Below, piece after piece: positions 26,277 through 39,037 of a DNA stretch of 39,037 nt (positions are counted from its first letter, which is position 1; each line of letters starts with the position of its first letter). The notes beneath the pieces are model-generated. The model had not been told where the DNA came from. It ran no database searches and saw only the letters and a program-made list of their open reading frames with translations. Position numbers and translations under genes: made by a program. Source of the DNA: a virus; the IMG/VR virus record IMGVR_UViG_3300010885_072385, positions 1-39,037 of that record. One strand, given 5' to 3'.

Positions 26277-26852
26277 ATGGCAAAAGTTAATGGAAAAAAT
26301 AAAGGCAATGGATTTGAAAGAAAAATTGCCAATCTACTTAGTACACGGTTTGAAACTGAAACTGGTCTAAAATCTTCTTTTAGAAGAAATTCAGATTCCG
26401 GGTCATTTTTCGGAGGAACAAACAAGCAACGCACTGAAACACACAATTTGGATTATGCAGTGTTTGGTGATTTGATTACTCCAAAAAATTTCAAATTTTC
26501 CATTGAATGCAAACATTATAAAACTGCTCCCACGTTTCAATCACTGGTAAATCACAACATTACCATGTGGGATTCTTGGTTGAAACAAGCACAACAGGAT
26601 GCCACATCATCTAATAGAAAGATGTGTTTGATAATCAAATACAATAATGTGGACGAAATTGTCTTGGTTGCAGACAAGCTACTTGACATATATGATTATT
26701 CCAAGTACAAAACCTGGTACGTCTATAAATTGACTGATTTTCTAGCTATGCCAGATGGCTATTTTTTCGAACGTGATCAGTTTTTGTCTTCTGACCAATT
26801 ATCAACAAATGGTTCAAACTTTTCCGGACCCAAAATCAGTTCTCCTGAATAG
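26277..26852 (+). CDS. PD-(D/E)XK nuclease, possible Holliday junction resolvase
   Basis: 191 residues from the ATG at 26277 (a TTG codon just before is not needed). Residues that fit the PD-(D/E)XK core are E14 in GNGFERKIA, D65 in DYAVFGD, and E77-C-K79 in FSIECKHYK. The N-terminus is basic (MAKVNGKNKGNG) and R36-R37-N-S-D-S-G-S-F resembles resolvase-type nucleases (Hjc/RecU-like). Placement directly after gp47 and gp46 suggests a role in resolving or trimming recombination intermediates. A restriction-type nuclease is the alternative. Its last 76 nt overlap the end of the convergent Acb1-like gene. Confidence 0.75.
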   Translation: MAKVNGKNKGNGFERKIANLLSTRFETETGLKSSFRRNSDSGSFFGGTNKQRTETHNLDYAVFGDLITPKNFKFSIECKHYKTAPTFQSLVNHNITMWDSWLKQAQQDATSSNRKMCLIIKYNNVDEIVLVADKLLDIYDYSKYKTWYVYKLTDFLAMPDGYFFERDQFLSSDQLSTNGSNFSGPKISSPE

Positions 26853-27256
26853 GGCATCACGTCTTCCCAGTTTGACCACTCGGAATTATAAGTAATTGAA
26901 ACATGCGGGATGTATTCCGGAAAATCCCACTTGGCGCCCAGTGAACAAAATTCCATCCAGCGATCTTCAAGTTTTTTGGATTCGAATGACAAAACAATGG
27001 TTGTTTCTTCTTCACCAAATGCCAACAACTTTCTATCATTGGTTTCTGGTATGACTAGTTCTCTTTTCTTTGGTCGGATGAGTAACCAATCAACTGGTGT
27101 TTTTGAATGCGCAATAGTCACATGCATGTCTTCGGGTTCAAGTGGTGTCTTACAACCATTTTTTCGAGCCCATTCCCAAACCTCTTCAGCATTAAGTAGT
27201 GGACGTGATACATAAAGGGTATCCTGCTTGGATTCAAATAGATCGATAAGTTTCAT
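26777..27256 (-). CDS. Acb1-like 2H phosphodiesterase, probable anti-CBASS protein
   Basis: 159 residues from the preferred ATG at 27256 (an upstream in-frame ATG at 27271 would add five residues). Two 2H-superfamily motifs are present: H45-V-T47 in DMHVTIAHSKTPVDW and H118-V-S120 in YIPHVSITYN, spaced as in Acb1 of T4-like phages (T4 gp57B family, about 150 residues). Acb1 hydrolyses the cyclic di- and trinucleotide signals of CBASS immunity. The ending GELILGPEKFEPF also fits that family as I recall it. The N-terminus MKLIDLFES contains L-F-E followed by S, like the capsid-targeting peptides of T4 internal proteins. RNA 2',5'-ligase-like activity is the alternative for a 2H fold. Confidence 0.75.
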   Translation of the reverse strand: MKLIDLFESKQDTLYVSRPLLNAEEVWEWARKNGCKTPLEPEDMHVTIAHSKTPVDWLLIRPKKRELVIPETNDRKLLAFGEEETTIVLSFESKKLEDRWMEFCSLGAKWDFPEYIPHVSITYNSEWSNWEDVMPYSGELILGPEKFEPFVDNWSEDKN

Positions 27257-27260
27257 CAAA

Positions 27261-27268
27261 TATTTATG
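27261..27268 (-). promoter_or_regulatory. Late-promoter-like box before the Acb1-like gene
   Basis: The minus strand reads CATAAATA, then TTTG, then the ATG at 27256. This box argues for the shorter start, since the upstream ATG at 27271 would lie before it. Confidence 0.5.
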
Positions 27269-27307
27269 CATTTTTATTTGAAAAATATTTTTTTTATTTT
27301 GCGATTC

Positions 27308-27315
27308 AATAAATA
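27308..27315 (+). promoter_or_regulatory. Late-promoter-like box before the structured RNA region
   Basis: AATAAATA in an A/T-rich stretch; transcription would start near 27320, where the base composition changes abruptly to higher G+C. It is the likely source of the candidate non-coding RNA. Confidence 0.45.
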
Positions 27316-27377
27316 GATGCCTATACTACTAATGTTGACGGAATAATTACCCGGACATCTTAGGAAAAAAGGCACCA

Positions 27378-27662
27378 ATGACTGCAGAATGCGGAAAAAT
27401 GAAAAACCTGGTTGTTCAGACCTGGTACCCCATCATGGGTGTTGCTGACGAAGAATTCGTCGGAAAGGCAGTCGCCTCTGTCACTGTTCTTGACTCACAA
27501 AAAAGAAGGGATTGGAAACAACCGCTGCATAGTCCGAAAATAGTAGGGCGCCGTAGATTGACCGTTTTCCAATCCCCTCGTCAATCACAAAATCAGAAAA
27601 CACAAGACGACATTTCAATGAACGTTCAACTACGAACGGAACCAGCGCCGCTAGCTGCCTAG
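27378..27662 (+). CDS. Doubtful ORF of 94 residues inside the structured region
   Basis: ATG at 27378 with AAAAAAGG upstream at good spacing. The first 45 residues look protein-like (GKMKNLVVQTWYPIMGVADE), but the rest is basic and low in structure (RRDWKQ, VGRRRLTVFQSPRQSQ), uses AGA, AGG and CGC codons uncommon in the neighbours, and coincides with the 11-bp stem of the RNA. It ends APLAA. It may be a real small protein with an unusual tail, a leader peptide, or chance. I recognise no family. Confidence 0.25.
   Translation: MTAECGKMKNLVVQTWYPIMGVADEEFVGKAVASVTVLDSQKRRDWKQPLHSPKIVGRRRLTVFQSPRQSQNQKTQDDISMNVQLRTEPAPLAA
27508..27576. repeat. 11-bp perfect inverted repeat in the RNA candidate
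   Basis: GGGATTGGAAA (27508-27518) pairs with TTTCCAATCCC (27566-27576) around a 47-nt loop that is itself G+C rich. It is the longest perfect stem in the candidate RNA apart from the terminator. Confidence 0.75.
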
Positions 27663-28155
27663 TGTGGTGACCCCACATTATGGAAAAACGGAGACATACC
27701 TATACTGAATAGTGGTTATCCGGTTTAACCGTACCACTCGTGCCACTGGAAGCGGCGAGGCGGCCATCACGTAAGGGGACTTCTAGTCATAAGCCCCAGT
27801 AGGAAAAATGACACAAAGGATCTAGAGTCGGGACAACGCTGACTCTATGATGCATCACCAGTCACATTGTGCATAGACGGTGGTGTAGCTTGGGTGAGAC
27901 TCCCATAACCGAGTATGATGACAACATCAGAGTATTGGGTCCGAAAGCTGGAAACTAGGTACTCCGCCAGCACCGGTAAACATTCCGGAAGGACATATGC
28001 ACATCGTTTCCAAAACTGCAATACATGAAGACCAATTCTATTTTTTGGCAATTTCTTCGATCAGTTCAGAACGAGTAACTCCTGGCAACGGGAGTACCGT
28101 GACACCCAGCAAACATGAAGCCTATTGGGCTACGCCAATTAAATTATCATTCACC

Positions 28156-28274
28156 AACTAATTAGAAAAACCTAACCGAAGTGATACTTGAGTACCTTTA
28201 GGTACGAAAAGTACACGAGGTTAAGCCAAGCGTAGCTTGTGCTTGTTATAGTTGATTAAGATTGAAAATTAGTT
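28156..28274. repeat. Multibranched inverted-repeat domain
   Basis: AACTAATT (28156-28163) pairs with AATTAGTT (28267-28274), closing a domain that contains AACCT/AGGTT, the hairpin GTACC-TTTA-GGTAC (28192-28205) and the hairpin AAGC-CAAGC-GTA-GCTTG-T-GCTT (near 28223-28244). Nesting of this kind is hard to explain as chance and indicates a folded RNA domain. Confidence 0.65.
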
Positions 28275-28390
28275 AGATTGCTTAGATCACTTAGAACAAC
28301 TGATTAAACAAATTACTGAATGACTAATTGAAAAGAGAAACTAAAAATTGCTCCCGACAATTAAGGTGTTCTATGACTTGAATTCCTTGT

Positions 28391-28413
28391 TCAGGAACGC
28401 TTCGCGCCCCTGA
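28391..28413. repeat. Short G+C hairpin before the terminator
   Basis: TCAGG (28391-28395) pairs with CCTGA (28409-28413) around an inner CGC-TTC-GCG. It sits 6 nt before the long A/T stem of the bidirectional terminator and may be the last helix of the RNA. Confidence 0.5.
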
Positions 28414-28418
28414 CCAAC

Positions 28419-28473
28419 AAAAAGAAAAATCTTGACCTCATCGCTTCGCTCTGATGTCAGACTTTTTCTTTTT
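28419..28473. terminator. Bidirectional terminator-like hairpin
   Basis: AAAAAGAAAAA (28419-28429) is the exact reverse complement of TTTTTCTTTTT (28463-28473). The inner arms TGAC-n-TCA and TGA-n-GTC also pair, around a loop TCGCTTCGCTC. Read on either strand, an A-rich arm, a stem and a T-rich arm result. It lies between the plus-strand RNA candidate and the minus-strand gp26/gp51 operon, where convergent transcription must stop. Confidence 0.75.
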
Positions 28474-28525
28474 GAAATTTTCAGAATTATTGGTTTTCAG
28501 AAATTTTTCTGTGATCTTCTTGACT

Positions 28526-28575: not shown

Positions 28576-28803
28576 TCAATTGGAAACCAGCAGCTCTTCA
28601 GTGCCACCATTCATTTTGCTGTAATACTCTTCAATGACTTCTGCCATTAGTTCACGTTGATTGCGATCAATTTCATAGACTGCATTAATATCAATTGCGC
28701 CGCGTGAATAAAACATGAGTCGCATTAATTCCAATTCAATCAATTTTTTAGTTTTTTTCATGCTCTTGAGTAACGATTCAATAGAATTGGAATCAAATGT
28801 CAA
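28576..28803 (-). CDS. gp51-like tail assembly chaperone part, made by -1 frameshift from gp26
   Basis: This frame encodes 75 residues if counted from a TTG at 28803, which overlaps the gp26 stop (TTGA). No ATG or Shine-Dalgarno is present there. The same frame is entered from gp26 by a -1 slip at T-TTT-TTC (28821-28815), giving a 357-residue fusion (278 residues of gp26 plus 79). The sequence has two helices, ELELMRLMFYSRGAIDINAV and EIDRNQRELMAEVIEEYYSK, similar to the C-terminal domain of G-T type chaperones of tape measures. In T4, gp51 lies beside gp26 and aids hub assembly. The homology call is from position and helix pattern. Confidence 0.6.
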   Translation of the reverse strand: MTFDSNSIESLLKSMKKTKKLIELELMRLMFYSRGAIDINAVYEIDRNQRELMAEVIEEYYSKMNGGTEELLVSN

Positions 28804-29648
28804 GAGCGTTTGGCGAAAAAATGAGTGGGTTCAAACTCCAAGTTTTCTTCCCATGTATGCGGACAGTTTTGGCATTCAAATACAATTGTTTTGTTAATAC
28901 CAATTGCATTCAGTTTTTTAACTGCTTCAAAAACTTGATCAGCTTGTTCTTTTTCAATATTAACTAACCATTCATTGATAAAACTCAAATCTTCCACTAC
29001 TTGATTGGTATCTAGTATCTTAATACTAACAATGCTTTTTGCTACCAAACTAAACGTAATTTGACTTAGTCGTTCCACACTTTCCGATATGCGAGCAGCT
29101 TGTAGGAATTCGTCGTCTGGTGATTCAACGACCGACATTTTAATCAATTTTTCTTCTTCAAATTGATGTTGTAGAAACAACTGCTTCATTTCAAAATTAT
29201 AGGGTTGTATTTCTACGAGCAACTGTTGATTCATCTCAATAAAACAATCAGAGTCATCCACAAAACTCATTGTATCCAACAACATTTGACAATTGAGATC
29301 AACCAGATTTTCATGACTGCAACGTTCACATTTGCGTTCAAGTTCAATTAACCCATTGTTGGTTGCTGCTTTGATTGCAACATAGAGAGCATCTAGATCA
29401 GGTGATTTGAAATTTTTAACATTTTTGATATCAGGGCAACAGCCAGAAATAATAGTTTCTAGGGCATGCCCATTTAATAAAGCATCTGGAGTATTCAACA
29501 TGATGTCGTCAATTGCTCTCATGGCATAGACCCCATGTTCTTTTTGCTGGTTATCAATGTCAGATTCCTTGTACCAACGATCTTGACTTGGAAACTTAAC
29601 AAATAATTGTGGTTGTCTGAAGTGTGACTTGAGTGGGTTTTGTGTCAT
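28800..29648 (-). CDS. 26: gp26-like baseplate hub/tail assembly protein
   Basis: 282 residues; T4 gp26 has 208. Two Cys pairs, C-E-R-C (near 105-108) and C-Q-N-C (near 259-262), fit the zinc-ribbon-like pattern of this family. The middle is helical (QLFLQHQFEEEKLIKM, LSFINEWLVNIEKEQADQVF). T4 gp26 acts in central hub formation with gp51, gp27, gp28 and gp29. The start has AGGAAAA upstream and a perfect TATAAATA box 28 nt before the ATG. Its end contains a T-TTT-TTC slippery heptamer in the correct frame. The tape-measure gene is divergent from it. Confidence 0.75.
   Translation of the reverse strand: MTQNPLKSHFRQPQLFVKFPSQDRWYKESDIDNQQKEHGVYAMRAIDDIMLNTPDALLNGHALETIISGCCPDIKNVKNFKSPDLDALYVAIKAATNNGLIELERKCERCSHENLVDLNCQMLLDTMSFVDDSDCFIEMNQQLLVEIQPYNFEMKQLFLQHQFEEEKLIKMSVVESPDDEFLQAARISESVERLSQITFSLVAKSIVSIKILDTNQVVEDLSFINEWLVNIEKEQADQVFEAVKKLNAIGINKTIVFECQNCPHTWEENLEFEPTHFFAKRS
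28815..28821 (-). other. -1 ribosomal frameshift heptamer T-TTT-TTC
   Basis: On the minus strand gp26 codons read CAT TTT TTC GCC. The heptamer T TTT TTC is of the X-XXY-YYZ class in the zero frame. Slipping -1 continues as CGC CAA ACG CTC TTG ACA, exactly the gp51-like frame, which is closed by a TGA only a few codons upstream. No downstream pseudoknot was identified by eye. Confidence 0.65.
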
Positions 29649-32151: not shown

Positions 32152-34374
32152 ATGGCTCGTTGGCAAAGGTATTTTTCAGCTGTTCCCACAGCAGCAGAAG
32201 TTCAAAAACGTTTAGAGAAAAAACAAACAACTGCAAATGGATCAGCCACATCCATGGACAAATATGGTAGTCCACTGCCAGAAGTCTATAGTGGTTCAGC
32301 AAATCGAATTGAACGCTATATGCAGTACGAACAAATGGATAATGATTCCGATGTGAATCGCGCCCTTGATATTATTGCAGATTTTTCTACTCAAACATTC
32401 GAAATTGATGATGCGCCATTTACCATATTATATGGTGATGATTTAACTGAAACAGAGATTAAAATACTCAAAGAAGCTCTAACACAATGGGCTACAATCA
32501 ACGACTGGAAAAAACGTGTTTGGAGAACATTTAGAAACACTTTAAAATATGGTGATCAGTTTTTCATACGTGATCCAGAAACATGTCAACTTATTTGGGT
32601 TGATCCCAACAAAGTGGAAAAGATTATTGTTAATGAATCCAAAGGCAAGAAAATTGAACAATATGTGGTAAGTGACTTGGATCTCAATTTGATATCACAA
32701 GTTGGATCCAACATGTTGGTGCATGATGCCTATACTTTCCCCAGTGGTGTTCCTCGTAATGCCAATACTGGATTGGGTGCGGGCGCAGTTAGCATGGGAA
32801 TTCATAGTCAGTCAAGTCGTAATAGTCGTTTTATGAGTCAAGCTAGCAATTTTGCCGTGGATGCAGTGCATGTGGTTCATTTTAGTTTAAGTGAAGGATT
32901 GGACGGACAATGGCCATTTGGAACGAGTATATTAGAAAATGTTTTTAAAATCTTCAAACAAAAAGATTTGTTGGAAGATGCAGTCATTATATATAGAATT
33001 GTTCGAGCACCGGAACGACTGGTATTTAAAATTGATGTTGGTGGGCTGAGTGGACCACGTGCACAACAGTTCGTAGAGAGAGTTAAGCAAGAAATTTATC
33101 AACGTAGAATCCCAGGTGTTTCTGCATCTGGTAAATCTGGACAAGATGCATCCTATTCACCAATTTCAATAACCGACAATTTTTTCCTTGCAACTGATTC
33201 TGAAGGCAAAGGAACAACTATAGAAACACTGCCAGGCGGAGATAATTTGGGTTGTTTTGCAATGGATACCAAAATTGTCTTGCTAGACGGCCGTCATTTA
33301 TCAATTTCTGAGATTGCAACTGAATTGGCCACTGGTAAAAAACTTTGCACTCTAAGTTGTGATCCGGTAACAGGTGAAGTTGCTCCAGGTATTATTGACT
33401 GGGCAGGTATAACACGACGTTCAGCACAAGTAATGAAAATTACTTTAAGTAATGGTAGTAGTTTTGTGTGTACGCCAGACCATGAATTTCCTAAGTTGGA
33501 CCAGGGATTCGTTGAAATACAAGATTGGCAAATTGGTGATGCTTTTATCACAGTAGATCAAAAACAGCCTGTTACTATTGTTGATAAAGAGTTATTAGAA
33601 GATAAAATTGATGTTGGTACACTAACAATTGACCGGGGTGAATTGCTGCATGACTGGCATACATACGCGCTTTCAGCCGGGGTTTTTGCTAAGAATTCAA
33701 TAGACGATTTAAAATTTTTCCAGAACAAGTTGTTCAGAGGACTTGGAATTCCCAGTAGTTATTTGCCAACTGGACCAGATGATGGTACCGCAACCTTCAA
33801 TGATGGTAAAGTTGGTACAGCATACATACAGGAGTTTCGATTCAGTAAGTATTGTGCTCGACTACAAAATAATTTTACTCCTATTCTAGATCACGAATTT
33901 AAAATGTTTTTGAAGAACCGTGGTATTGAAATATCCAGTAGTGATTTTAGTCTACAAATGTGGCCACCGCAAAGCTTTGGTGAATATAGACAAATGCAAT
34001 TGGACTCTGAGCGTATTAATATCTACAGCAGTATTATGTCAACTAATGCAAATCGATTCATGAGTCAACGGTATGCTTTAAAGAAATATTTGGGATGGAC
34101 TGATGAAGATATTTTGGAAAACGAGCGTATGTGGAAAGAAGAAAATGCCAGCAGGTTGAAATCACAAACTGGACAGTCACCAATTGACTCTAATCAATTG
34201 GGATTGAGTTCTGTGGGTGTTAAACCACAAGCTGGTGGATTTGATATGGGTGGTGATTTTGGTGCACCTGGGCCCGAATCCACTGAAGCCGCGCCACAAG
34301 CAGAAGAAAATACACCGGCCTCAACTGAAGTACAAAATGCAGCAACCAATGGAACTGGCTTGGAAGGTCTATAA
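32152..34374 (+). CDS. 20: Portal vertex protein gp20, interrupted by a mini-intein
   Basis: 740 residues, of which 148 (368-515) are an intein, leaving a 592-residue portal (T4 gp20 has 524). Portal hallmarks are the N-terminal YMQYEQMDNDSDVNRALDII, the wing/clip region LKYGDQFFIRDPETCQLIWV, VVHFSLSEGLDGQWPFGTSI, IYRIVRAPERLVFKIDVG, and LPGGDNLG joined after splicing to SIDDLKFFQNKL. The portal forms the dodecameric ring at the head vertex through which DNA is packaged and the tail attached. The C-terminus is Ala, Glu and Pro rich. Without splicing the intein would split one of the most conserved portal motifs. Confidence 0.93.
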   Translation: MARWQRYFSAVPTAAEVQKRLEKKQTTANGSATSMDKYGSPLPEVYSGSANRIERYMQYEQMDNDSDVNRALDIIADFSTQTFEIDDAPFTILYGDDLTETEIKILKEALTQWATINDWKKRVWRTFRNTLKYGDQFFIRDPETCQLIWVDPNKVEKIIVNESKGKKIEQYVVSDLDLNLISQVGSNMLVHDAYTFPSGVPRNANTGLGAGAVSMGIHSQSSRNSRFMSQASNFAVDAVHVVHFSLSEGLDGQWPFGTSILENVFKIFKQKDLLEDAVIIYRIVRAPERLVFKIDVGGLSGPRAQQFVERVKQEIYQRRIPGVSASGKSGQDASYSPISITDNFFLATDSEGKGTTIETLPGGDNLGCFAMDTKIVLLDGRHLSISEIATELATGKKLCTLSCDPVTGEVAPGIIDWAGITRRSAQVMKITLSNGSSFVCTPDHEFPKLDQGFVEIQDWQIGDAFITVDQKQPVTIVDKELLEDKIDVGTLTIDRGELLHDWHTYALSAGVFAKNSIDDLKFFQNKLFRGLGIPSSYLPTGPDDGTATFNDGKVGTAYIQEFRFSKYCARLQNNFTPILDHEFKMFLKNRGIEISSSDFSLQMWPPQSFGEYRQMQLDSERINIYSSIMSTNANRFMSQRYALKKYLGWTDEDILENERMWKEENASRLKSQTGQSPIDSNQLGLSSVGVKPQAGGFDMGGDFGAPGPESTEAAPQAEENTPASTEVQNAATNGTGLEGL
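33253..33696 (+). other. 148-residue mini-intein in the portal gene
   Basis: The insertion starts at C368 (CFAMDTKIVLLDG, splicing block A with a nucleophilic Cys) and ends at N515, followed by S516, the +1 nucleophile. Block B is present as T441-P-D-H444. Block F has H503-T-Y-A-L-S-A-G-V, the histidine 12 residues before the terminal Asn. Block G reads VFAKN: the usual penultimate His is Lys (K514). No homing-endonuclease domain fits in 148 residues. The flanks rejoin as LPGGDNLG and SIDDL, a contiguous T4-like portal motif. This is a class 1-type intein fixed without its own mobility gene. Confidence 0.88.
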
Positions 34375-34388: not shown

Positions 34389-37265
34389 ATGACATCCCGA
34401 CTTATTACCTTATTGGAAAACAACGCTTATCGATCATATACTAAAGCTGAATATGATGCGATGAAGAAATTGCCTGGTAATATTTTAAATCCACTATTTA
34501 GAACTACCAATTATAGACAGACGTTTTGGAGCGGTGATCCCAATAAATTCTCATTTTCAGCAAAGAGTAAATCTGAATTCGAAGTACTGCAAGGAGTTTT
34601 GACTGAGTTTAATTATCCTTTTGAATATATATCATCAGTAAGTATTGATGTAAATGGATCAAAAAAAATGACTTGGGTGGTAGTTTCTCCGATATTGGTT
34701 TGGTATAAATCGGGAACAACTGAGGGAAAAAACAACTTTGTTCGATTACTTGATACTTCGGGCAAGTTAATCTATGAATGTTCAATTGAACAGATAACCC
34801 AACAAGATCCTTCGGATATTATGGCATTGATTTATAGTAAATTAGGTATTGCAATGCCTTTTTATCAAGATAATCCCTTGGCAACTGATGAACAACAAAT
34901 TGCTTATGCGACACGTTATAAATCTGCTTATCAGGATCTAATAACGAAGGGCATTCAACCCGGTGATGCTGTTAAATTGAAAGTATTGAAAAAATTCCCA
35001 CTTGCTATTCAATGGATGCCGGACCCAACTGAACAAATGCAATTGACCGCGTTAAAATCTATACCAAATAATTCAAAAGCATATACCCGTTTCTACACAC
35101 TATCCACGGTTGTAAAGAACCCAACTGAAGAATTTTCAATGAAGCTCATTGATCATTATCCAGGTCATATTAAGCACTTGGTTAATCCCAGTGACAAACT
35201 TATTTTTCATGCATTGCAGAACCAGCCCAATCTTATTCAATATTTTTGTGATGGTCCACAGACTTTAAAATTCCAATTGGCTGCGGTTAAACAAACTTAT
35301 ACAGCATTGCGTGAAATTAAAAATCCGGCTCCACTAATACAGGCAGTGGCATGTCAAAAATCTCCGTCTGCAATAAATCTTGTAATTCCTGTGGAATCAG
35401 CTGACATAAGTTTGCTCAAACAACATCGATCAATATTGTATCCAGCACAACTAGCTTATTTGGAAAAAATTGAACAGCAAGAACAATTAACAGAATCTGT
35501 TGATGTCGATATGTCTGATTGGAGTGAACAAGAAAAAGCACATTATAGAAAAGCATTGGAAATATCTTCACAAGAACGTGATATTGCAGAAATAGTAGAA
35601 TATATCAACAGTCATAAAATTTCGGACCGAGTATTGATTGCTATATTCGAATATATGGATATAATCGATTATGTTGATTGTGCTAATTTATCAATACCAG
35701 TACAATTGTGGCTTGTTAATGAATATGCTTGGAATATACAATGTATTAAATCACCAGCGCCAATGATACAGGCAGTAGCTTGTCGCAAACAGCCTGGTTC
35801 AATAAATCTTGTAACTCCAATAGAATCAATTGACATATCATTGCTAAAGAAATACAGAGACATATTGAATCCGCCTCGATCGGTTTATTTGGAAAAGATT
35901 GAAAAACAAGAACGACTAACAGAAACAATAAACATTGTTGAATCTTCTGTAAATACACCCGAAGAAATAGAATATATTTTATCTCAAATTAAAGCATATT
36001 ATGACCAATTCGTGTCTAATAGATTGTCATATTTAATTTATATTGATTATTGTGTCAGCTTGATAAAGAAATTAATCAATCCCAGTTTAGAAACACAGTT
36101 GGCTATTGTTGCGATAGACCCTTTCCTTTTGCCCCGGTTGAATACAGACAACATAGACGTGCAAATCGCAGCAATCGGACAGCGACATGGAGTGTTTTCT
36201 CATATCAAAAATCCATCTATTCGTCTACAACTATTGACTGTACAAGAAGAACCTTTATTGATAACATATATATCTCGGCCATCTCCATTGGTACAGTGGG
36301 CAGCAATAAAAGCAGGAATCGTATACGATTATGATATTCAAAAAATAATCAATTTGATTAATCCTCCTGCCTGTATAGACCCCAGTATTATCACCTGGTG
36401 GGAAGAACAACAATCAAACCAATTAACGGAATCAACCGATCATTCTGAGTTTAGTCATCGTGAACAAGCACAGTTTGATCAAATACTTGAGATTCATAAC
36501 ACACTACCTAACGCAGATTTAAAATTTTATTTTGAAACTACTAATATTAGTGAACGAGTTTTGATTTCGTTAATTAAAATTGAACCATATTTAATATGGG
36601 ATATACCTCGCGATAAAATTACTGTTAAAATGCAATTGGCAGCAGTACACGAAAATAGCAAAGCACTAGTCGATAATCCTCCTCCGTTGGTACAAACAGT
36701 AGCTTGTAAAAATTATCCTCGGGTAATAAATCTTATAAATCCTATTAGTGCAATAGATTTTAATTTGATGAAAAAATACTATGAATACCTCACGCCTGAA
36801 CGCCGCAGTTATTTTGAAGCAATAAAAGACGAATTATTGGAATCAGTTGATCTAAACATGCCTAAAAGAACTTTGAATGGTCTGACTGAAGAACAACAAG
36901 TAGAATATGTCAAACTGCATCAAGATGATGAACCAGACCATATATTAGATGATGTAATTATGGACTCTAATTTAAGTGAAGCAGTCAAATTAAAAATACT
37001 TGCGATTAATGGTGCCTTTTTGGGATGTTTTGAAAAACCTTGGAGTTTAATATTTCAATTAGCGGCAGTTAAATCAAAACCGGGTAGTATTTTGATGATA
37101 GAAAATCCCGCACCTATGATACAATGGGCAGCTTTCCAAAAATCCAAATCAGCAATCTGGGACATATATCCTCCATCTTGCGTACTACCTGAAATTATTG
37201 CCGCTTATAATGAATGGGCTTCAGAAGATCCATGGCATAGAAAACCCTATACAGTGAAAGCGTGA
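34389..37265 (+). CDS. Helical-repeat protein with (L/I)-x-E-S linkers, possibly packaged in the head
   Basis: 958 residues, not recognised as a known enzyme. After an N-terminal domain (about 1-200) the protein repeats helical units with a core such as FQLAAVKxxxxALxxIxNPAPLIQ; larger modules of about 140-170 residues include INLVxPIESIDISLLKKYR and end in LTES or similar: 367-370 LTES, 510-513 LTET, 679-682 LTES, 816-819 LLES. The units look like HEAT/ARM-type or DUF4116-like repeats. The linkers fit the T4 prohead protease rule (L/I)-x-E before S, A or G, and the N-terminus (MTSRLITLLEN) has L-L-E at 8-10. A head-packaged, protease-processed protein is inferred. The next gene is a paralogue, with 3 nt between stop and start. 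Confidence 0.7.
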   Translation: MTSRLITLLENNAYRSYTKAEYDAMKKLPGNILNPLFRTTNYRQTFWSGDPNKFSFSAKSKSEFEVLQGVLTEFNYPFEYISSVSIDVNGSKKMTWVVVSPILVWYKSGTTEGKNNFVRLLDTSGKLIYECSIEQITQQDPSDIMALIYSKLGIAMPFYQDNPLATDEQQIAYATRYKSAYQDLITKGIQPGDAVKLKVLKKFPLAIQWMPDPTEQMQLTALKSIPNNSKAYTRFYTLSTVVKNPTEEFSMKLIDHYPGHIKHLVNPSDKLIFHALQNQPNLIQYFCDGPQTLKFQLAAVKQTYTALREIKNPAPLIQAVACQKSPSAINLVIPVESADISLLKQHRSILYPAQLAYLEKIEQQEQLTESVDVDMSDWSEQEKAHYRKALEISSQERDIAEIVEYINSHKISDRVLIAIFEYMDIIDYVDCANLSIPVQLWLVNEYAWNIQCIKSPAPMIQAVACRKQPGSINLVTPIESIDISLLKKYRDILNPPRSVYLEKIEKQERLTETINIVESSVNTPEEIEYILSQIKAYYDQFVSNRLSYLIYIDYCVSLIKKLINPSLETQLAIVAIDPFLLPRLNTDNIDVQIAAIGQRHGVFSHIKNPSIRLQLLTVQEEPLLITYISRPSPLVQWAAIKAGIVYDYDIQKIINLINPPACIDPSIITWWEEQQSNQLTESTDHSEFSHREQAQFDQILEIHNTLPNADLKFYFETTNISERVLISLIKIEPYLIWDIPRDKITVKMQLAAVHENSKALVDNPPPLVQTVACKNYPRVINLINPISAIDFNLMKKYYEYLTPERRSYFEAIKDELLESVDLNMPKRTLNGLTEEQQVEYVKLHQDDEPDHILDDVIMDSNLSEAVKLKILAINGAFLGCFEKPWSLIFQLAAVKSKPGSILMIENPAPMIQWAAFQKSKSAIWDIYPPSCVLPEIIAAYNEWASEDPWHRKPYTVKA

Positions 37266-37268
37266 TTG

Positions 37269-39037
37269 ATGAAACTCAATAATCGCAAACAAATAGTGGA
37301 ATCAAGAATTTTTGAAAAACGTTGTAACTATTTCAAATCATTAACTGATGATCAAAAAATTAATTATGCGGAACGCAATTGGCATATTTCCGATATGCCT
37401 GTGATCATCGCAAGTCAAACTTGGAGTGAAAAAGTACAGCTTGCTTTATTAGACGTAGGTGGGGGTGATTTTTTTAATTATCTCAAGAATCCCACTATAA
37501 AAGTTCAATTGACGGCAGTAAAATATAATGGATTTAATATTGTTGCGATTCAAAACCCGCTTCCCATGATACAGTGGGCGGCGTTTAAAAATGATCCGAT
37601 GTCAATATGGAATATTAGACCTATTACATGTGTATTACCTGAACTTGCAGAAGAATACAATAAATGGGCTGATAACAATCCGGGTTATAGAAAATTTGTA
37701 GTTGAATCAAACATATTTGAGAGTCTAGAACACTTTGGTGACGACCAACCAGACTTTGATGAACTTGGTGAAGATGAACAGATTGAATTTATTAAACAAA
37801 ATTTGGATGATGCTGAATATGATATATTGGTAAATGTACTATGTGATGCGAAATATATCAGTGAAAGAGTTCAACTAGCTGCCGTAAAATTAAAACCGGA
37901 TCTAATTATTTGTTTTAATGATACAAGTATATTGGTGCAGTTAGAAGCGGTCAAAAGAGATGGTACAGCAATTTTTCATATATGGAGACCAAGTCCCTTG
38001 ATTCAAGCTGCTGCTTGCAAACAAGACCCTGATGCTGTCAATCTCATAGAACCAATTAACGTCATCGATATTAATCTTTTGAAAAAATATAGATCTGCAC
38101 TAGGCTTTGAAAGACAGGAATATTTGAAACAACTGGAAAAGCAAACAACGCTAACTGAATCAAAATACGCTATTGAGGATGGTTATTTTAAAACAGGTAC
38201 ATTTAAAGGTAAATGGGCACTTTCTTTTAATGATGATACTTGGCGAGAAGATGATATTATTGATTTTATAAAAGATTTTTATCAAGATGGTTCTTCGAAC
38301 AATGCTGATTTTCTTTTATTTGAAGAAATAATGCGTTCTTCTGATTTAAGTGAACGCGTGCAGTTAGAATTAGTTAAAGTAGACGCATATGGTTTGAATT
38401 TAATTGAAAAACCCAGCATTCGAGTTCAACTGGCAGCAGTAAATAATAAAGGCTTGGCCATTAGTGAAATTTACAATCCACTGCCTATGATCCAATGGGC
38501 TGCGGTAAAAAATAACTATAATGCAATATGGGAAATAAATCCCAAACAGTCAATAATAGAAGACGTTAAAACATATTATAACACCTGGGCCAAAGAACAA
38601 TTTACTCGCCGACTATTTGTAGAATCAAAACGATATAATTCACTGGATCCTAATACTTGGAGTGATCAACAGATACTGGATTATATTGGTGAACGTGTAG
38701 AAAGAATTAACTCAGGCAATGATTATACAACGGAAGTGAATGAAATTCGTCGATTGGTCAAATGCTTGACGTCAGCTAGTGAAAGCCTAATAAAAGCTGT
38801 TATCAAAATAGAACCCGGCTGTTTTGAATTGTTTGCTGATAAATTCCCAATTTCAATCTCACTTCAAATCTGGGCAGTTCAGTATGCGGACTACATGATT
38901 GATTATATCAAAGATCCAGCTCCGCTAGTTCAATGGGCGGCAGTATCTGCAAATAGATCAGCGCTATTTTGTATGAACATCAAAAAATTGGATCCTACGA
39001 TTCGTGAAAAATATCGAGATTTTTTGATAAAAAATGA
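37269..39037 (+). CDS. Second helical-repeat protein, paralogue of the preceding gene (C-terminus beyond window)
   Basis: The frame is open from ATG 37269 to the right edge (589 complete codons). It begins MKLNNRKQIVESRIFEK, with I-V-E before S at residue 11/12. It repeats the same units: VQLTAVKYNGFNIVAIQNPL, PMIQWAAFK, SERVQLAAVKLKPDLI, and IDINLLKKYR. It also has the same linkers: IFES at 149-152 and LTES at 295-298. The core PLPMIQWAA and the TWAKEQ/EYNKWA endings match the last module of the upstream protein, so it arose by tandem duplication. Function unknown; the pair follows the portal where T4 has scaffold and protease genes. Confidence 0.75.
   Translation, partial: MKLNNRKQIVESRIFEKRCNYFKSLTDDQKINYAERNWHISDMPVIIASQTWSEKVQLALLDVGGGDFFNYLKNPTIKVQLTAVKYNGFNIVAIQNPLPMIQWAAFKNDPMSIWNIRPITCVLPELAEEYNKWADNNPGYRKFVVESNIFESLEHFGDDQPDFDELGEDEQIEFIKQNLDDAEYDILVNVLCDAKYISERVQLAAVKLKPDLIICFNDTSILVQLEAVKRDGTAIFHIWRPSPLIQAAACKQDPDAVNLIEPINVIDINLLKKYRSALGFERQEYLKQLEKQTTLTESKYAIEDGYFKTGTFKGKWALSFNDDTWREDDIIDFIKDFYQDGSSNNADFLLFEEIMRSSDLSERVQLELVKVDAYGLNLIEKPSIRVQLAAVNNKGLAISEIYNPLPMIQWAAVKNNYNAIWEINPKQSIIEDVKTYYNTWAKEQFTRRLFVESKRYNSLDPNTWSDQQILDYIGERVERINSGNDYTTEVNEIRRLVKCLTSASESLIKAVIKIEPGCFELFADKFPISISLQIWAVQYADYMIDYIKDPAPLVQWAAVSANRSALFCMNIKKLDPTIREKYRDFLIKN

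Follow-up and report, generated by a model that had tools for sequence, protein, structure and literature searches.

Evidence for a stand-alone gene encoding a folded non-coding RNA, of a family absent from Rfam 15, in T4-like jumbo phages

What occupies a stretch of about 1.15 kb, without a convincing protein gene, that lies between an anti-CBASS gene and a T4-type baseplate gene in a phage genome fragment? The fragment, a 39,037-base IMG/VR virus record (here called the window, at its full length), encodes proteins of the T4-like jumbo-phage type, among them a T4-type portal with an intein-like insert, T4_baseplate, a gp25-like wedge, SbcC/SbcD, a PDDEXK nuclease, and Acb1 (anti-CBASS). Its portal is closest, at ~45-48% identity, to those of Sinorhizobium phage Phosso, a Vibrio jumbo phage, PA5oct-like Pseudomonas phages, GAP32, and 121Q. 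The Acb1 gene directly adjoins the stretch, as it also does in the relative L091. Elsewhere in the window, the insertion in the portal gene (32152-34374) covers residues 375-490 (Pfam Intein_splicing, weak) and is probably an intein, and two adjacent large ORFs (34389-39037; 958 aa and at least 590 aa) have leucine-rich-like repeat motifs in common (VQLAAVK) and match PHROG families without known function.

The properties that first drew attention to the stretch proved of unequal value as signs of an RNA gene. The G+C contrast with its surroundings is real (47.8% over 27320-27980), although the two neighboring genes measure 35.6-36.8% and not the 33% of the original prediction; the AATAAATA box in front and the strong hairpin at the end are both present (Table 1). 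Perfect inverted repeats, which had been read as the signature of a folded RNA, are not enriched over shuffled sequence: seven stems of at least 7 bp were observed versus 4.7 +/- 2.1 in shuffles (10 of 60 shuffles reach that many), and two of at least 8 bp versus 1.1 +/- 0.9. Folding energy is below that of shuffles for the whole stretch (z -3.3) and stands at z -3.1 for 28131-28475, while the homologous domain by itself gives a weak signal (z -1.55) and z is -1.06 for 27630-28020. Repeats and folding energy of the window are thus insufficient reasons, and the decisive evidence is the covariation and conservation found in relatives.

The absence of a convincing protein gene, in comparison, held up well. 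No ORF in the stretch has a Pfam or PHROG relative, and none of the alternative genetic codes tried opened a gene. Conservation at the protein level, named beforehand as the observation that would speak against an RNA, is absent: the candidate, a 94-aa ORF (27378-27662), has no Pfam or PHROG match and no equivalent in L091 or other relatives, and its region shows single-base indels between close relatives and many stops.

Relatives were recovered by several routes. A search with SbcC gave L011, a 93% relative, in which the RNA stretch (27328-28250) is 97-98% identical and the flanking genes 85-92%; the stretch is therefore conserved above the neighboring coding DNA. A 29-base match in L012, at the expected distance from SbcC, led to the motif GGAAA-(N)-TAGGTnCTCCGCC, and IMG/VR was scanned twice, with this motif and with the pattern AAAGGATC...RACCGAG...TAGGTnCTC, yielding L091, the L012/L094/L097 groups, L108, L111, L112, and L113. 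Eighteen other pattern matches were set aside as chance occurrences in which the flanking hairpins are absent.

The order of genes at the locus is conserved, as SbcC - ... - RNA - small gene - T4-type baseplate gene - portal region. The RNA lies at this place, with the recombination gene block on one side and the T4-type baseplate gene on the other, in L011, L091, L012, L108, L111, L112, and L113 and in phages 121Q, GAP32, PA5oct, Phosso, Munch, Hallingskeid, and CBB; among loci with enough flank, T4_baseplate is behind the RNA in all and SbcC in front in most, and the portal gene follows further beyond T4_baseplate in each locus of sufficient length. RaK2 and PA5oct also carry the RNA, and the copies in 121Q, GAP32, Munch, Hallingskeid, and CBB are much diverged from that of the window. 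In Phosso, PA5oct, GAP32, and 121Q, the window's locus appears as a gap of 0.7-1.5 kb that is unannotated or poorly annotated. The Phosso gap (L116 3480-3790) holds a hairpin GTTGG..CCAAC abutting GACCG, plus a C-rich/G-rich 3' hairpin, and is a probable distant member of the family, in which hairpin 5 is not placeable.

A DNA search with the 121Q stretch returned 41 phage records (121Q-like, Munch-like, Erwinia, Serratia, Xanthomonas, Pectobacterium, Cronobacter, and RaK2-like Klebsiella phages), and the 121Q RNA has no match in plasmids. The window RNA and six concatenated cores gave no match by DNA similarity against 50,697 phage records. Clear copies also occur in two Enterobacteriaceae assemblies, Silvania hatchlandensis and RIT714 (L207, L208), on contigs of 185 kb and 299 kb that are probably co-assembled or carried jumbo phages.

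Table 1. Features of the RNA gene and its neighbors in the window
Feature	Position	Strand	Remarks
Acb1 gene	26777-27271	minus	5' neighbor of the RNA stretch
Putative promoter	27299..27327	+	TTGCGA, 17 nt, TATACT; spacer contains AATAAATA box (27308-27315)
5' extension, specific to window and L011	27328..27700	+	98.1% identical to L011
Homologous RNA domain	27701..28130	+	97.0% identical to L011; alignable with L091, L012, L108, L111, L113, and others
Invariant AAAGGATC	27815..27822	+	Immediately 5' of hairpin 1
Hairpin 1	27823..27847	+	TAGAGTC 27823-27829 / GACTCTA 27841-27847; 45/45 cells paired, 7 distinct arm pairs
Hairpin 2	27852..27886	+	GCATCACC 27852-27859 / GGTGGTGT 27879-27886; 48/48 cells paired, 7 distinct arm pairs
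Hairpin 3	27892..27904	+	GGG/CCC, abuts RACCG; position same in all groups
ACCGAGTA, pseudoknot 5' strand (GAGTA 27911-27915)	27908..27915	+	ACCG invariant; pseudoknot covaries
Hairpin 4	27917..27928	+	GATG / CATC; 36/36 cells paired, 7 distinct arm pairs
Hairpin 5	27947..27971	+	GCTGG / CCAGC, loop AAACTAGGTACTCCG
Pseudoknot 3' strand TACTC	27960-27964	+	Within hairpin 5 loop
3' domain hairpin ACTCC TGGCAAC GGGAGT	28078..28095	+	Counterpart: C-rich/G-rich 3' hairpin of all relatives
Conserved 3' tail with hairpins	28131..28250	+	96.7% identical to L011
Near-palindromic hairpin, A and T tracts	28418..28474	+	12-bp perfect arms; reverse complement matches itself
75-aa ORF and T4_baseplate gene	28576-29648	minus	3' neighbors of the RNA stretch

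Within the window, the RNA gene spans 27328-28250 and its homologous domain 27701-28130. The predicted giant size of 1.15 kb has to be reduced for what is shared, which is a domain of ~430 nt, although the 5' extension (~370 nt) and the 3' tail allow 0.9-1.1 kb, a possible length for the window's own transcript. The extension contains an 11-bp stem GGGATTGGAAA (27508-27518 / 27566-27576) and was not found in L091 or other relatives. The near-palindromic hairpin at the far end is probably a terminator common to the RNA gene and the convergent minus-strand gene.

Alignment of the homologous gaps, proposed together with the original prediction as a check, gave strong covariation among copies at the same locus. 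In the window type, hairpins 1, 2, 4, and 5 each occur in 7-8 quite different arm versions that are 100% paired; these arms were hand-picked, which biases them toward pairing, and the RNAalifold and shuffle tests on the 121Q type are cleaner. For that type, 17 copies were aligned, and of the 62 pairs that RNAalifold predicts in them, 39 show compensatory changes. With the structure taken as 57 RNAalifold pairs plus the pseudoknot, two-sided changes occur in 42 of 62 pairs (0 of 500 shuffles), 94.9% of cells are paired versus 76.8% in shuffles and 37-41% with partners slid, and the covariation score is 0.531 versus 0.187 and 0.07-0.10, respectively. Hairpin 3 covaries in this type as well (helix 8).

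What the groups have in common is a five-pair pseudoknot that covaries across every group: its 5' strand follows (R)ACCG, and its 3' strand comes from the A-rich hairpin 5 loop, in the 3' part, just 5' of C(C)CG. It reads GAGUA/UACUC in the window, L091, L111, and L113; GAGAA/UUCUC in L012 and L108; GGGCA/UGCCC in copy 2 of G002; GUUGC/GCAAC in 121Qa and RaK2; GUUAC/GUAAC in GAP32a; GUCAU/AUGAC in 121Qd; and GUUGU/ACAAC in GAP32c. A descriptor of the pseudoknot and hairpin 5, composed with both groups already known, matched only copies of the RNA family across 1.7 Mb of real sequence, with no match when 3.4 Mb of shuffled sequence was scanned, and a looser one recovered all five GAP32 copies plus one chance-level match. 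The succession of a hairpin, RCC(G)NNNN, and a hairpin 5 with an A-rich loop whose 3' part pairs with NNNN was found in the window, 121Q, and PA5oct types, and shuffled controls of both descriptors gave 0 matches. The 121Q type is missed by a covariance model of the window type that is mostly sequence-based (5 base pairs); the model is poor in structure because MAFFT misaligned hairpins 3 and 4. We therefore base the homology of the groups jointly on locus, architecture, and pseudoknot, and not on a sequence score.

Two peripheral elements were seen in addition. At the 3' end of the 121Q type (e.g., L120 5345-5420) a short motif stands twice, both copies changing together (CGTCAA in 121Q and Munch, CGTCAG in GAP32-like phages, CTTCAAG in RaK2), and the two may compete for a single 5' partner. 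An optional hairpin module with TACAATATAGATCCGTCC is present in twelve loci, those of the two bacterial assemblies included, at differing peripheral positions in the RNA and sometimes two per copy.

Evidence of transcription comes from PA5oct (NC_071039.1), which has three copies, one of them at the window's locus with a pseudoknot that is not placeable, and two with the pseudoknots UCC-GGCA/UGCC and UCC-GGGA/UCCC. In one of the latter, the pseudoknot and hairpin (246507-246618) fall inside 246116-246734, a feature annotated as “ncRNA004, putative lncRNA, based on RNA-Seq” and bracketed by a predicted promoter TTGACA-17-TAAACT and a 3' hairpin. The other two PA5oct copies have a perfect TTGACA-17-TATAAT in front, and a TATAAT -10 element, mostly extended, precedes 14 of the 14 examined copies of the 121Q type. 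These motifs in relatives suggest early transcription by the host sigma70 polymerase, and the late expression originally proposed is not supported. In the window the promoter-like sequence overlaps the AATAAATA box, where both early and late readings are possible, and a promoter scan found 2 against 3.0 expected, by itself no better than chance.

Copy number differs among the carriers. GAP32, CBB, Munch, Hallingskeid, BF, Kaldavass, and G008 (a 358-kb metagenomic genome), all seven of them complete or nearly so, have five each; we found four in 121Q, at least three in RaK2, at least three in PA5oct, two in G002 (a 310-kb contig), one in G001, and one in the 39-kb window fragment. Some copies lie at orthologous loci across genera: all have one beside the baseplate gene, 121Q, GAP32, and RaK2 have one beside dam, and the first two of these also have one beside a Dps-like gene. 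The core of the apparent Dps-linked version is nearly identical in six genomes. Neighboring genes differ among the copies of one genome. A BF copy stands in front of an ADP-ribosylglycohydrolase gene (L202 2102-3031), and the second G002 copy precedes a gene for a 375-aa protein (L165 2263-3390) that is ADP-ribosyltransferase-like by eye and has no Pfam match.

Conserved position, a covarying pseudoknotted structure, several diverged copies, the lack of a conserved protein, and the PA5oct transcript together make it almost certain that the stretch encodes, as a gene of its own, a folded non-coding RNA of T4-like jumbo phages, from a family absent from Rfam 15. The core of the original prediction, a structured non-coding RNA gene, is in this respect confirmed by covarying homologues at the same locus, one of them within a transcript annotated from RNA-Seq. 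As to how it may work, we favor, with reasonable though far from complete confidence, an overall account in which host RNA polymerase would transcribe the RNA early, from its own sigma70-type promoter; the transcript would fold into hairpins 1-5, with the hairpin 5 loop pairing back to the ACCGNNNN segment, and would end at the 3' hairpin; and the RNA would then act in trans, serving host takeover or phage protection either by itself or together with a protein of phage or host, several specialized versions being kept per genome. The trans mode taken separately (host takeover, decoy, or protein partner) is tentative, at a little under an even chance. The early timing is read from promoter motifs, of which the window's own is at chance level in the scan, and a trans-acting RNA leaves the even, one-strand spacing of the copies unexplained.

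That spacing is what the leading alternative would account for. Under it, the RNA would work where it is made, most plausibly by helping to start DNA replication at dispersed origins, and its fold would govern how it hybridizes with the AT-rich DNA that follows. In each of the seven five-copy genomes all copies share a strand and lie about 49-85 kb apart, and random placement on a circle equals or betters this evenness in 0.01-0.3% of trials per genome (p 0.0001-0.003), values that assume a circular genome and come from related genomes, so that the tests are not independent. The orthologous positions across genera point the same way, as do the 200 nt behind the RNA, which have 23-35% G+C in eight of nine copies and 38% in one. 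Against this reading, the GC skew of GAP32 rises smoothly with no turn at the RNA copies, the literature searched gives no mapped origin for these phages, and a pseudoknot with conserved unpaired bases points more to an RNA that binds or catalyzes than to a primer. Further, only four copies were detected in 121Q and at least three in RaK2, and the window-type genome G001 (328.6 kb) shows a single one, the additional copies that even spacing predicted having failed to appear with the descriptor. We regard such position-bound action as possible and clearly less probable than action in trans, and the fuller proposal of an RNA class that acts at fixed, evenly spaced sites, five per 350-kb genome, for example in starting or timing replication, as doubtful.

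A late RNA like GOLLD or ROOL was an idea of the original prediction; such an RNA would form a multicopy cage around tRNAs, ribosomes, or other cargo, and the kind is indeed similar, a long, ornate, pseudoknotted phage RNA of 0.45-1.1 kb. The suggested covariance models (GOLLD, ROOL, HEARO, OLE) were run at the gathering score and at E<=10 without a match, and Rfam 15 as a whole, under the same two thresholds, offers no family for the window, L012, or 121Q copies. ARAGORN and Rfam find no tRNA gene in the 39-kb window, whereas GOLLD and ROOL are often near tRNA islands (PMC12286853), and the promoters look early and not late; a cage is accordingly unlikely, and identity with GOLLD or ROOL is not upheld. 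Slightly less probable still is a cis-regulatory leader, attenuator, or intron of a neighboring protein gene. Some copies do lie upstream of co-directed genes such as dam, but downstream genes vary between copies, and the copy at the window's locus (copy 'a') everywhere runs toward its downstream gene in convergent orientation, besides diverging from the upstream one in the window, so it is not a leader of that downstream gene. Group I and group II introns were rejected, with only a 13.1-bit group-II fragment (E 9.1) and no split protein around it; OLE and HEARO were rejected with their Rfam models unmatched, and tRNA and tmRNA with no ARAGORN or Rfam tmRNA match, 121Q giving only 5.5-bit tmRNA noise. 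A protein gene or its remnant in the 94-aa ORF, whose initial 120 nt look codon-like by eye, is highly improbable given the missing matches and equivalents, the indels, and the stops described above.

Five diverged copies, long maintained, evenly spread, and on one strand, imply that something important depends on these RNA genes. It appears that an RNA family with strong covariation has escaped listing in jumbo phages that are in wide use, whose hosts include Escherichia, Salmonella, Klebsiella, Erwinia, Serratia, Cronobacter, Pectobacterium, and Pseudomonas. Known coordinates in laboratory phages open direct questions about the RNA in host takeover, defense resistance, and the replication of large genomes, and a covariance model built from the present alignments would let annotation pipelines mark the family. 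If position-bound action were true, it would mean an RNA-based handling of very large phage chromosomes with no known counterpart.

Several known RNAs invite comparison. GOLLD forms an RNA-only nanocage, and its level increases during lysis; ROOL is highly abundant and forms a homo-oligomer; OLE comes from extremophilic bacteria and acts with dedicated proteins; and at T4 origins and with ColE1 RNA II, an R-loop or pre-primer RNA starts DNA replication. Large structured phage RNAs without known function, such as GOLLD and ROOL, are a known kind, and OLE is an ornate RNA of ~0.6 kb (PMC12286853). Like GOLLD, the window RNA is a large structured phage RNA whose 3' part is conserved and whose 5' part is less so; unlike it, it has no Rfam match or tRNA neighborhood, several dispersed copies, and early-looking promoters. 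With ROOL it has in common a size of ~0.6 kb, a pseudoknot, carriage by phages, and no known partner protein, and it differs in the missing Rfam match, the locus, and the several diverged copies per genome. The likeness to OLE is that of an ornate RNA of ~0.6 kb, but the window RNA has no Rfam match, and OLE is bacterial and has dedicated proteins. ColE1 RNA II, also a folded RNA, and the T4 R-loop origin transcripts are functional comparisons only, as transcripts before AT-rich DNA at dispersed or fixed sites; no sequence relation was seen, and priming here is an analogy. The RNA family is not described in the literature searched (subscription literature and preprints lay outside it), and as far as checked, within the databases and literature covered, the family, its pseudoknotted core, and its dispersed multicopy layout are new. 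Nearest among earlier records is the one lncRNA feature of PA5oct, ncRNA004, which is much diverged in sequence and stands in its record as a lone lncRNA without family, structure, or relatives, but which has the same pseudoknot and hairpin 5 core (UCC-GGCA...GAGG-AA..GG-UGCC-CG-CCUC), its own promoter, a C-rich/G-rich 3' hairpin, and two further copies in the same genome.
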